Positions 5,940 to 63,136 of a DNA stretch of 64,000 nucleotides are shown piece after piece. The position numbers and the translations under genes are program-made. Location of the stretch: the NCBI RefSeq assembly GCF_900112845.1, contig NZ_FONG01000005.1, positions 186,001 through 250,000 of the forward strand, written 5' to 3'. Within the stretch, counting starts at the first letter, position 1, and each line of letters opens with the position of its first letter. The stretch is from Actinacidiphila alni (GTDB lineage: Bacteria; Actinomycetota; Actinomycetes; Streptomycetales; Streptomycetaceae). The notes beneath the pieces were generated by a model. It searched no databases. It had not been told where the DNA came from and saw only the letters and a list, made by a program, of their open reading frames with translations.

Positions 5940-5960
5940 CGCGCAGTTCCCCGCGCCCCT
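5940..5960. repeat. Solo end of the dispersed palindromic element
   Basis: This 21-base sequence (core GCAGTTCCCCGCGCCCCT) is identical to the right terminal inverted repeat of the ~130-bp elements at 7815, 52732, 58675 and 63005. It directly abuts the stop codon of the PIG-L gene. The rest of the element is missing here. Confidence 0.85.
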
Positions 5961-7733
5961 TTAAAAACGGGCGCTGTACTCCGTCGAACTTGCGGGGAGG
6001 GGATACGTCAGCGTGATCGTGCCCGTTGGGGATCCGGCCGCGGTCGGGATGTCGCCCGGGGTGGGGAGGTGCTTCAGCGGGGCGTACGCGACGGGGGCGG
6101 CGGGGGAGGGCTGGGTCCAGTGGTGGACGGTGGTGTGGCCCGAGCCGAAGACGTGGATACGGCCGCGCCCGTCGGTGACGACGGCGAGCCCGTCCTGGAC
6201 CTCGCCGCCGCCGAGATCGCGCCACGGGCTCCACACCCCGGCGGTCAGCACCCGGGTGCTGACACCCTTGGCGGCGTTGCGGGCGAACAGGTGCACACTG
6301 CCGTCCGGCGCGGTGACCGCGACCGGCACACCCGTCCGCCGCGTACGGTCCTGGTCGGTCTCCGGGCTGCCGAGCGAGGACCAGCCGCCGCCGCGCCACA
6401 TGACGATGTCCCGGGTGTTCGGGCCGCCGTGCCCCTCCAGGACCGCGAAGCGCAGCGCGAACAGCAGGGTCTCGCCGTCGCGGGTGCGCACGCACGACAG
6501 GGCCGGCGCGAGCGTCCCGCCGCCCAAGTCCTGCGGTTCGCCCCACACCCCGCTGCCCGGCCGGGTCTCCGCCCGCCGCACCGCCCGGTTGCCGAGCACC
6601 TCGTACGCGTACGGCCCCGCCACGATCCGGTGCGCGCCCGAATAGCGGCGGTGGGTGGAGCGGATCCAGCCCTTGCGGTTGGCCAGCGGCTCGTTCTCGC
6701 CCTGGCCGTAGTCGCCGCAGCCCGCCTTGTTGCCGCACTGCCAGGCCGCGTTGCCGCCGTACTGGAACAGGAAGCGGGCCTTCAGCGCGACCGTGGCGGG
6801 CGGCAGGTTGTACGGCCAGTGGTGGGCGTAGTAGCCGCGGTAGGCAGTGGTGGTGAAGGCGGGCACCACGCCGGCGGCGCCCGCCGCCGACCGTGACACC
6901 CACTGCGCCATCGCCTTCCAGGTGAACAGCGCCGCCGCCGTGTGGTCGCGGTGGTCGGAGAAGCCGGGCTGCTCGGCGCCGACGGTGTGCGCCTGGATGT
7001 CCGGGTCCGGGTCGAGGGTCCTGATCTCCGTCGGCCGGAAGCGTTCCATCAGGCCCGCGAGGACGTCCAGCAGCCGCTGGTGGGTGTAGACGCTGTGCCG
7101 GTCGTCGGCGGCGGGCGCGTCCCGCGCGTCGACGTACGGCAGCGCGATGCCCGGTCGCGACCACATCAGCGGCAGGCTCGCGCCCGGCGCGGGCTCGTGC
7201 ATCGACACCTGGAGGAACACCAGGCGGGCGTGGCGGTCGCCGTGCCGCAGCGCGTCCATCTCCGCGCGCAGCCCGCCGCCGAGGTCGAGCACCTCGGTCG
7301 TCCACGGCGTGAAGTGCGGCAGGCCGAGCATCGTCGCGTACGCCTGCCGCAGGCCCTGGTGCCGCGCCGAGGAGTACGCGGCGCGGTCGTGCCGGTGGTG
7401 GTGGCGCGGGCCGAACGGTTCGTGGTTCACACCGGTCGACTCGCCGGCCGTCACGTACACCGAGACCACGGGGGTGCCGGCCTGGAGCGAGTGGACGGTG
7501 TCCGGGTTCATGAAGAACAGGTCGTCGTCCGGGTGCGCCAGCACCTGCATCACCAAAGGGGTGCCCATTTCGCCGTACGGCTGCGTCGCCAGTGGGTCGG
7601 GCGGCGCCGCCATCCTCTCGGGCGCCGCCGTCCGCACCGTCGTCGTGCACCCGCTCAGTGTCGCGGCGGCGGCCCCGAGGGTTGCCAGGAGCGCGCGGCG
7701 CGACGGGGGTTGTGGGGTGTGATCGTCCTTCAC
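5961..7733 (-). CDS. PIG-L family deacetylase lipoprotein with propeller-like C-terminus
   Basis: The protein has 590 residues. The N-terminus has twin Arg at 12-13, a hydrophobic stretch and a lipobox LSGC ending at Cys29, so a Tat-type lipoprotein signal is likely. Residues 60-330 match the PIG-L/LmbE fold: AHPDDD at 66-71 gives the first metal ligands and SDHRDHTAA supplies the later His. This family removes N-acetyl or N-acyl groups from amino sugars using Zn2+. The C-terminal 200 residues hold W-rich repeats (GVWSPWRDLGGG) like sialidase or PLL-type propellers, probably for ligand binding. The substrate is unknown; an extracellular glycan is plausible. An element end and a full element copy flank it. 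Confidence 0.85.
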   Translation of the reverse strand: MKDDHTPQPPSRRALLATLGAAAATLSGCTTTVRTAAPERMAAPPDPLATQPYGEMGTPLVMQVLAHPDDDLFFMNPDTVHSLQAGTPVVSVYVTAGESTGVNHEPFGPRHHHRHDRAAYSSARHQGLRQAYATMLGLPHFTPWTTEVLDLGGGLRAEMDALRHGDRHARLVFLQVSMHEPAPGASLPLMWSRPGIALPYVDARDAPAADDRHSVYTHQRLLDVLAGLMERFRPTEIRTLDPDPDIQAHTVGAEQPGFSDHRDHTAAALFTWKAMAQWVSRSAAGAAGVVPAFTTTAYRGYYAHHWPYNLPPATVALKARFLFQYGGNAAWQCGNKAGCGDYGQGENEPLANRKGWIRSTHRRYSGAHRIVAGPYAYEVLGNRAVRRAETRPGSGVWGEPQDLGGGTLAPALSCVRTRDGETLLFALRFAVLEGHGGPNTRDIVMWRGGGWSSLGSPETDQDRTRRTGVPVAVTAPDGSVHLFARNAAKGVSTRVLTAGVWSPWRDLGGGEVQDGLAVVTDGRGRIHVFGSGHTTVHHWTQPSPAAPVAYAPLKHLPTPGDIPTAAGSPTGTITLTYPLPASSTEYSARF

Positions 7734-7814: not shown

Positions 7815-7944
7815 AGGGGCGCGGGGAACTGCGCGCTCAGCCCCCACCGGCCCGGTGGTCGCAAAAACAACAGCGTCTGCCCCACTGGGGGCGGTTTTTG
7901 TCTGTAGGCGCGCGCGGGCTGGGCGCGCAGTTCCCCGCGCCCCT
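7815..7944. repeat. Dispersed ~130-bp palindromic element, copy A
   Basis: 21-bp terminal inverted repeats (AGGGGCGCGGGGAACTGC... and its complement) bound a conserved core. The core has a hairpin GCCCC-ACTG-GGGGC (7879-7892) followed by GG and five T; on the other strand a T-rich tract GTTGTTTTTG follows. It lies downstream of the minus-strand ABC permease and could terminate it. The inner right part is of the GTCTGTAGG type, like copy B. There is no target-site duplication and no coding capacity. Confidence 0.85.
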
Positions 7945-29114: not shown

Positions 29115-29193
29115 CCCCATCGAGCTGGCACCCGCCAGTTCGCACTGACACCGGTACCTGACACGGCCGGTGCAGCGGAGAAGGAGAAAGACC

Positions 29194-52573: not shown

Positions 52574-52731
52574 CCTCCGCTTCCCGCCCGGCCCGGCCGC
52601 CCCCCACCCCGGGGGCGCCCGGGCCGCGCCTTTTCTCCCGCGAAGTGCGGTGCCCCTCCGGGGCGGGGTGCGTGATCTCCTGCGGAGTGCGGCGCCTGAT
52701 GTCTCCTGCGGAGTGCGGGAGTCATGTTTTT

Positions 52732-52861
52732 AGGGGCGCGGGGAACTGCGCGCTCAGCCCCCACTGGCCGGTGGTCGCAAAAACAACAGCGTCTGCCCCG
52801 CTGGGGGCGGTTTTTTGTCTGAAGGCGCGCGCGGGCTGGCCGCGCAGTTCCCCGCGCCCCT
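52732..52861. repeat. Dispersed ~130-bp palindromic element, copy B
   Basis: It has the same 21-bp terminal inverted repeats as copy A. The central hairpin GCCCC-GCTG-GGGGC (52795-52808) is followed by GG and six T; AAAACAAC on the left gives a T-rich tract on the other strand. It lies between the convergent groEL1 and SDR genes, where it could stop transcription both ways. Confidence 0.88.
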
Positions 52862-52864
52862 GAC

Positions 52865-53015
52865 GGGGCATCCCACCTCCGCACAGCGCGGGCGAGGGGC
52901 CGCGCCCCTATCGGGCGCCCACTTCCGCCGGCGCAGCGCCGCGTCCCCGCGCCCCTGGAGGGGCATCCCACCTCCGCACAGTGCGGGCAAGGGGCCGCGC
53001 CCTTATCGGGCACCC
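52865..53015. repeat. Direct repeat of a 56-base module beside copy B
   Basis: GGGGCATCCCACCTCCGCAC... occurs at 52865-52920 and again at 52960-53015, with roughly 90% identity by eye. Both end in CGCGCCC-TATCGGGC. The second copy is preceded by a partial element end (TCCCCGCGCCCCT). Related modules flank copies A and C. No gene is present in 52574-53033. Confidence 0.75.
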
Positions 53016-53033
53016 CTCTCCGGAGGAGACGGG

Positions 53034-58674: not shown

Positions 58675-58803
58675 AGGGGCGCGGGGAACTGCGCGGCCCG
58701 CCCCCACCGGCCCGGTGGTCGCGAAACAACAGCGTCTGCCCCGCTGGGGCGGTCTTTTGCCCGCACCACGGATGTGGCTGAGCGCGCAGTTCCCCGCGCC
58801 CCT
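58675..58803. repeat. Dispersed ~130-bp palindromic element, copy C
   Basis: It has the same terminal inverted repeats; the core GCCCC-GCT-GGGGC is followed by GGTCTTTTG. The inner right part (CCGCACCACGGATGTGGCTG) matches copy D rather than A and B. It lies between convergent lysR and wbl. The left flank extends the inverted repeat (GATGCCCCGTC), matching the right flank of copy B. Confidence 0.87.
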
Positions 58804-63004: not shown

Positions 63005-63136
63005 AGGGGCGCGGGGAACTGCGCGAGCAACCCGCCACCGGGCCGGTGGTCGCATAAACAACAGCGTCTGCCCCGCTGGGGGCGGTTTTTGACCCGCGCC
63101 ACGGATGTGGCTGAGCGCGCAGTTCCCCGCGCCCCT
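63005..63136. repeat. Dispersed ~130-bp palindromic element, copy D
   Basis: It has the same inverted repeats and core (GCCCC-GCTG-GGGGC, then GG and five T). The inner right part is shared with copy C. It lies in the 267-base gap between guaB and guaB3, both on the plus strand, and so probably terminates guaB. Confidence 0.87.

Follow-up and report, generated by a model that had tools for sequence, protein, structure and literature searches.

Modular palindromic repeats at gene 3′ ends in Actinacidiphila alni and other Streptomycetaceae

Introduction

Between groEL and a convergent gene of Actinacidiphila alni stands a palindromic sequence of about 130 bp, and the question it raises is whether it is a mobile repeat, a two-way transcription terminator, or both. 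It lies in contig NZ_FONG01000005.1, of which positions 186,001-250,000 (64 kb, hereafter the window) were analyzed within the 8.27-Mb genome (G000; the contig is our C19). A preliminary description had reported, for the window, four full copies and one solo end of a dispersed, amplified element that may spread like a REP or MITE sequence. Similar GC-rich repeats occur in Streptomyces sequences. We found no description of this repeat in the open-access literature, which is not proof of its absence there: its exact 19-mer and a 17-mer were unmatched, and 12-mers matched only papers with eukaryote titles.

Results

The element in the window

The four full copies and the solo end were re-located at the positions first proposed, and all nine ends in the window are exact to AGGGGCGCGGGGAACTGCGCG, which bears out the 21-bp terminal inverted repeats. 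The core hairpin, GCCCC-N3-GGGG(G)C, was likewise found in 4/4 copies. The features are as follows, with genes named by eye from their protein sequences:

52732..52861, + strand: full element between groEL and a convergent SDR gene
52732..52752, + strand: left terminal inverted repeat, 21 bp, exact match
52753..52760, + strand: left subterminal module CTCAGCCC, for which the A. alni genome has about four common variants, this one included
52761..52774, + strand: small hairpin CCACTGGCCGGTGG, from the sequence and the 80-copy alignment
52779-52787: A-rich stretch 5′ of the core hairpin, i.e., T's on the other strand (window sequence)
52795..52816, + strand: core hairpin GCCCC-GCT-GGGGGC, then GG and six T (window sequence)
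52841..52861, - strand: right terminal inverted repeat, 21 bp, exact match
7815..7944, + strand: full element, tandem, between two leftward genes, exact ends
58675..58803, + strand: full element with a short T-run and exact ends, flanked by a LysR gene and a WhiB-like ORF that converge on it
63005..63136, + strand: full element, tandem, between guaB and a guaB-like gene, exact ends
5940..5960, - strand: solo end, exact, abutting the stop codon of a PIG-L-like gene that converges with tuf

Three copies had been placed between convergent genes; this count is right if the solo end at 5940 is included with the 52732 and 58675 copies, and the full copies alone give two, those at 7815 and 63005 being tandem. 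Mechanical ORFs run across the window copies. No relevant Rfam match above the gathering score was obtained, and a subthreshold match to MIR1437 was judged to be due to chance. Elsewhere in the window, at 29121-29175, is an L17 ribosomal protein leader RNA (RF03132). The flanks of the 52732 element (52620-52730 and 52862-53030) consist of further short repeats (CTCCTGCGGAGTGCGG, GGGGCATCCCACCTCCGCA, and AGGGGCGCGGGGACGC, among others), and a number of 3′ intergenic regions resemble patchworks of such words.

Copies in the A. alni genome

The whole genome contains 102 + 99 = 201 occurrences of the exact 19-mer end, GGGGCGCGGGGAACTGCGC (backward control: 0). A 15-mer from the core has 82 exact matches and 16 more at one mismatch; at no more than two mismatches there are 147 matches, against 53 in the backward control. 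From 91 rows we dropped five longer than 170 bp, which join a counted element to a degenerate end, and thus retained 86 distinct full elements, mostly 128-133 bp in length. The element is therefore dispersed, amplified, and palindromic, as had been proposed.

Each element reads as an outer flank word, the 21-bp end, a subterminal module, a small hairpin (CCACCGGnCCGGTGG), an A-rich stretch, the core hairpin GCCCC-GCT-GGGGGC, GG and a T-run, the right module, and the inverted end. In an alignment of 80 copies, which leaves out two unoriented rows and four rows outside 127-133 bp, positions 1-21 are invariant, and most variation falls in columns 22-26, 38, 50-55, 83-84, and 86-113. Sampling by the core gave 98 matches, one of them a chance match in coding-like DNA. 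The remaining 97 elements have 194 ends, of which 173 are exact, eight carry one mismatch, 10 carry a hairpin, and three are lost. Cores (at no more than one mismatch) are unevenly distributed, with one in 371 kb of contig C16, one in 509 kb of C20, and 14 in 384 kb of C23.

The hairpin-carrying ends belong to ten copies in which a near-identical hairpin of about 30 bp, in two slightly different forms, sits at one fixed point within one end and never in both ends of the same copy:

Inserted hairpin, right end: loci L022, L028, L061, L067, L070, L084, and L102
Inserted hairpin, left end: loci L051, L090, and L101

It has the look of a variant "long end" module, or else of a second small element that goes to one fixed target. 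A permissive pattern for one kind of small inserted hairpin gave few matches: 0 in the window, three in 335 kb of A. alni loci, two in 80 guaB loci, and three in 20 relatives (reversed control: 0). By eye, four loci of relatives (L202, L205, L212, and L213) have different hairpins near the same point of the end.

Distribution among genomes

The exact 19-base end is present in 25/35 genomes of the same genus and in 230/394 Streptomycetaceae genomes representing 9/17 genera, with 0 to 542 copies in each. In a phylum-wide sample it was found in 7/296 genomes, all seven being Streptomycetaceae, and 0 of 287 sampled genomes of the phylum outside that family carry it. In the ten congeneric genomes that lack exact copies, allowing up to two mismatches brings only 0-7 matches, against 0-3 in the backward control, so the lack of the repeat in them is real. 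A low-copy genome (G022) has an end variant of its own: nine of the 32 near matches listed read GGGGCGCGGGGAACCGCGC, and four are exact. No exact 21-mer of the end was found in viral contigs, and carriage by plasmids was rejected after a blastn search of the 52732 element against plasmids returned no match.

Facing pairs of ends, 62-92 bases apart, occur in only 56/394 Streptomycetaceae genomes, although single ends occur in 230, which makes the half, and not the pair, the widespread unit. Direct arrays of elements or halves were observed at L227 (693-1332), L134 (110-430), and L217 (turned; 6347-6581), with periods of about 170, 50-70, and 108 bp, respectively.

Of the same-genus interiors, 47/62 match A. 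alni interiors at E <= 1e-3, whereas in another genus (g14) 14 loci from 14 genomes share the end and 0/14 of their interiors match at that threshold. The ends of other genomes were collected by exact or near-exact end searches, so their invariance across genomes is partly a product of ascertainment.

Gene context

Of the 86 A. alni copies, 44 have tandem genes on either side, 38 have convergent genes, and two have divergent genes; the other two overlap a called gene. The expectation for 84 copies, scaled from how intergenic bases divide among the three classes in 80 loci from other species, is 47.5 tandem, 12.6 convergent, and 23.9 divergent (chi-square = 71). The proposed enrichment at gene 3′ ends is therefore upheld and is strong, and copies are not scattered at random within genes or promoters. 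The same tendency is visible in 15 related genomes, where 62 copies comprise 41 tandem, 15 convergent, three divergent, two overlapping a called gene, and one at an edge (chi-square = 17 for 59 copies). Because both sets of counts depart from the intergenic background, we conclude that 3′ ends are preferred and divergent (promoter) regions avoided; the preference could come either from target choice or from selection. These contexts derive from a simple codon-bias gene caller whose start codons are unreliable. At least one gene escaped it, the WhiB-like ORF at 58675; the copy there was accordingly counted as tandem and is read by eye as convergent.

Shuffling of modules and similarity within genomes

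The left and right subterminal modules of A. alni copies are close to linkage equilibrium (mutual information = 0.225 bits, against 0.172 +- 0.045 after shuffling; p = 0.12), and of 84 combinations of six blocks 83 are distinct. At p < 0.05, 10 of the 15 block pairs show no association, and the five associated pairs are mostly on the right side (adL-adR: 0.049; subL-hpL: 0.031; modR-subR: 0.014; modR-adR: 0.034; subR-adR: 0.012), so shuffling is extensive yet incomplete. The outer flanks also reuse a few words (AGGTCTTTT in 20, GTGCCCGAT in 19, and CATGTTTTT in 11 of 168 flanks), and the inverted-repeat match between the two flanks of one copy is no greater than that between shuffled flanks.

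Copies resemble others of their own genome. Among 52 elements from 11 related genomes, 28 (0.54) had their nearest neighbor within their own genome, against a mean of 0.08 and a maximum of 0.23 in 2000 shuffles. This set left out three unoriented rows, four genomes with a single sample, and three of the four tandem copies at L227, and 12 random A. alni copies were added as further possible neighbors. The mean interior difference was 0.20 within and 0.33 between genomes, with the A. alni sample included. The intergenic site between guaB and guaB3 allows the comparison to be made at one locus: at least one end (at no more than one mismatch) is present in 9/17 relatives with a readable spacer, and in 7/7 genomes the element there is nearer to same-genome copies than to copies at the orthologous site (at most 25 A. 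alni copies were used). Exchange between copies and repeated replacement at favored sites would each give genome-specific cores, which could also reflect independent recent insertions instead of conversion.

Termination and RNA structure

The functional explanation for these patterns is that the element is a two-way transcription terminator, or a protector of 3′ mRNA ends, under selection, and that it owes its spread to its usefulness at gene ends. Its enrichment at 3′ ends, in A. alni and in related genomes alike, is what this explanation leads one to expect, as are the few ends lost (3/194) and the very stable RNA fold predicted for the four window copies (z = -5.9 to -8.1).

T-runs were said to follow the hairpin on both strands. 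This holds for the window copies, with a weaker run in the 58675 copy (TCTTTT), whose opposite side has only three A's. It also holds for most A. alni copies, at least 5 T in 6 nt being found at the center of 56/84 copies on one strand and of 72/84 on the other, in keeping with a terminator. As a general rule, however, the suggestion that the element may be kept as a two-way terminator is not supported: in the 15 related genomes a T-run was found in just 1/62 copies (0/59 oriented copies, and one G016 copy among three unoriented rows). Because A/T tracts are common in A. alni and so rare in its relatives, terminator function would be at best a local addition.

In tandem pairs of A. alni the strong T-run is directed downstream in 30 cases vs. 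13 (p = 0.014), or 29 vs. 13 (p = 0.02) when the 58675 copy is moved to the convergent class, a bias that lends weak support to a putative terminator role in this species. The corresponding counts in relatives, 22 vs. 19 (p = 0.76), speak against such a role there, and the difference between A. alni and relatives is itself not significant (p = 0.18).

We obtained usable groEL flanks for 17 of 19 relatives (all except L205 and L209), and the element is missing after groEL in 16 of them, L199 being the one that has it. A perfect stem of 13-20 bp lies within 110 nt of the stop codon in 8/17, against at most 7 bp in coding controls (n = 90), and the remaining 9/17 appear by eye to have imperfect stems. 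Since other hairpins, perfect or imperfect, occur there, groEL ends without the element in 16/17 relatives, which tells against the functional explanation. In A. alni the 52732 element begins 158 bp past the groEL stop; the longest perfect stem before it is 7 bp, not above the control, though by eye a longer, imperfect hairpin can be made out there, with TTTT after it. Hairpins between stop codon and element are slightly weaker (median of -26.7) than those at element-free gene ends (-29.5), and a T-rich tail accompanies 19/114 of the former, against 4/94 of the latter, in both cases on a GC background that gives hairpins everywhere.

A conserved RNA structure was rejected for lack of covariation support. 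RNAalifold gave a covariation term of -0.04, with one pair, the outermost (columns 1-134), changed on both sides in 1/59 sequences; the set had been chosen by near-exact ends, so the ends could not show covariation, and the interior also shows none. This, too, weakens the functional explanation, as does the distribution, with ends in only 230 and facing pairs in only 56 of the 394 genomes. We regard selection for termination or end protection as possible but rather unlikely. As judged from its letters, the element can resemble a two-way terminator in A. alni, and that resemblance is not what the family conserves.

Mobility and classification

The likeness to REP and MITE sequences proposed at the outset applies to the architecture, i.e., solo and paired REP-like units and multicopy terminal inverted repeats, and does not extend to a Y1 transposase or a target duplication. 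No target duplication had been reported, and we found none: with k of 2-10 and offsets of -1 to 1, the match between the two sides of the 86 copies was never significantly above that of shuffled pairs. A MITE with target duplication is rejected on this ground. Y1_Tnp (PF01797) has 0 matches in the A. alni genome, and mobilization of the RAYT/IS200 type is rejected for that reason. The element has two inverted REP-like units around a spacer, plus solo units, as REPINs do, and it is short, multicopy, and bounded by terminal inverted repeats, as MITEs are. Its ends start with AGGGGCGC and not with a GTAG-type foot. Given that the genome has no RAYT/Y1 transposase and that no duplication is seen, we file it as neither a REPIN nor an ordinary MITE.

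Y1_Tnp is present in 7/35 genomes of the genus, six of which have no exact copy of the end (G007, G009, G013, G019, G021, and G025; G029 has both), a pattern that may reflect only shared ancestry. No transposase-like gene was seen by eye in two A. alni regions with unpaired ends. A clean empty site was not obtained because guaB identity to the nearest relative reaches only 93%.

An ordinary MITE, i.e., an internally deleted insertion sequence moved by the DDE transposase of an autonomous copy in the family, would account for the short length, the terminal inverted repeats, the high copy number, and the patchy occurrence among genomes. We hold it to be improbable: apart from the missing duplication in 86 copies, the interior is no remnant of one parent, being unrelated across genera that share the end (0/14 g14 matches), half-units and direct arrays exist, and no autonomous copy was seen by eye in the two A. 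alni regions with unpaired ends. It is very unlikely indeed that the repeat is a binding site for a host protein or a chromosome-organizing sequence with an unimportant interior, which would suit an end whose very sequence, beyond its pairing, is near-invariant in the A. alni genome, but about 42% of family genomes (164/394) have no exact copy and the ten zero-copy members of the genus are empty at no more than two mismatches too.

Discussion

The explanation that we favor, and consider probable, places the element in a Streptomycetaceae family of intergenic palindromic repeats that are modular and non-autonomous, spread or homogenized between copies, and tolerated at gene ends. The unit would be the half, a 21-bp end with its subterminal module, and two facing halves around a core would make the 130-bp element. 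The ends may be fixed since something acts on their sequence, be it a trans factor such as a recombinase or strand exchange anchored in identical blocks. Copies would spread to new 3′-intergenic sites and overwrite each other, whether through conversion or through template switching from one invariant block to another; they would survive mainly where neither a gene nor a promoter is broken. In A. alni, a core with A/T tracts may additionally stop transcription from both sides. For the mechanism we infer non-autonomous behavior of the REPIN, BOX, or ERIC type. Against the favored explanation, neither the Y1_Tnp search of the genome nor the reading by eye of two regions with unpaired ends turned up a mobilizing enzyme, five block pairs depart from full shuffling, and the 3′ clustering and the copy number could instead reflect function.

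A bolder version can be put forward only tentatively. Repeats of the whole family would spread as interchangeable modules, in which the near-invariant 21-bp end, recognized by a recombinase or serving as an anchor for strand exchange, lets any interior be carried. Unrelated interiors would have been captured across genera, copies would be kept alike by continual exchange, and about 100 copies in one species would have been turned into two-way terminators. If the favored explanation is right, high-GC bacteria offer a case in which intergenic repeats are combinatorially shuffled and homogenized genome-wide, and the Y1 transposase that accounts for REPINs is not involved. The matter concerns over half of the sampled Streptomycetaceae genomes (230/394 with the exact end, up to 542 copies in one). 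RNA data could record such hairpins as sRNAs or as 3′ ends, and the hairpins could also break short-read assemblies or serve as recombination sites.

Comparison with known systems

Intrinsic terminators of Streptomyces are similar to the element in being GC-rich hairpins at gene ends, and 55 bidirectional 3′-end pairs are given for S. clavuligerus (PMC8269248). They differ in that upstream A-rich tracts are reported to be virtually absent from them (PMC12207403), whereas A. alni copies carry such tracts and the copies of relatives have no T-runs.

A second comparison is with intergenic palindromes of comparable length. ERIC and Correia elements are about 100-160 bp long and make TA duplications, unlike the Streptomycetaceae element, which has none. 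Reported ERIC copy numbers range from 30 to 711 per genome; in Yersinia, ERIC is found at gene 3′ ends, where it influences mRNA decay (PMC10969869).

REPs and REPINs share with the element a short extragenic palindromic unit that occurs solo, in inverted pairs, and in clusters, with many copies at gene ends. RAYT-linked REPs begin with a conserved GTAG foot at the hairpin. The start of our ends has no such foot, and the A. alni genome has no Y1_Tnp domain. Gene conversion was reportedly raised for the spread of REP sequences in the title of a 1988 paper by Higgins, which PMC4681348 cites.

BOX elements are modular. Together with RUP and SPRITE of Streptococcus pneumoniae, they resemble the element by description, as clustered, short repeats. 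These repeats insert into one another, and SPRITE is terminator-like (PMC10969869); the Streptomycetaceae element differs from them in that its ends are near-invariant over many genera and its middle is replaced.
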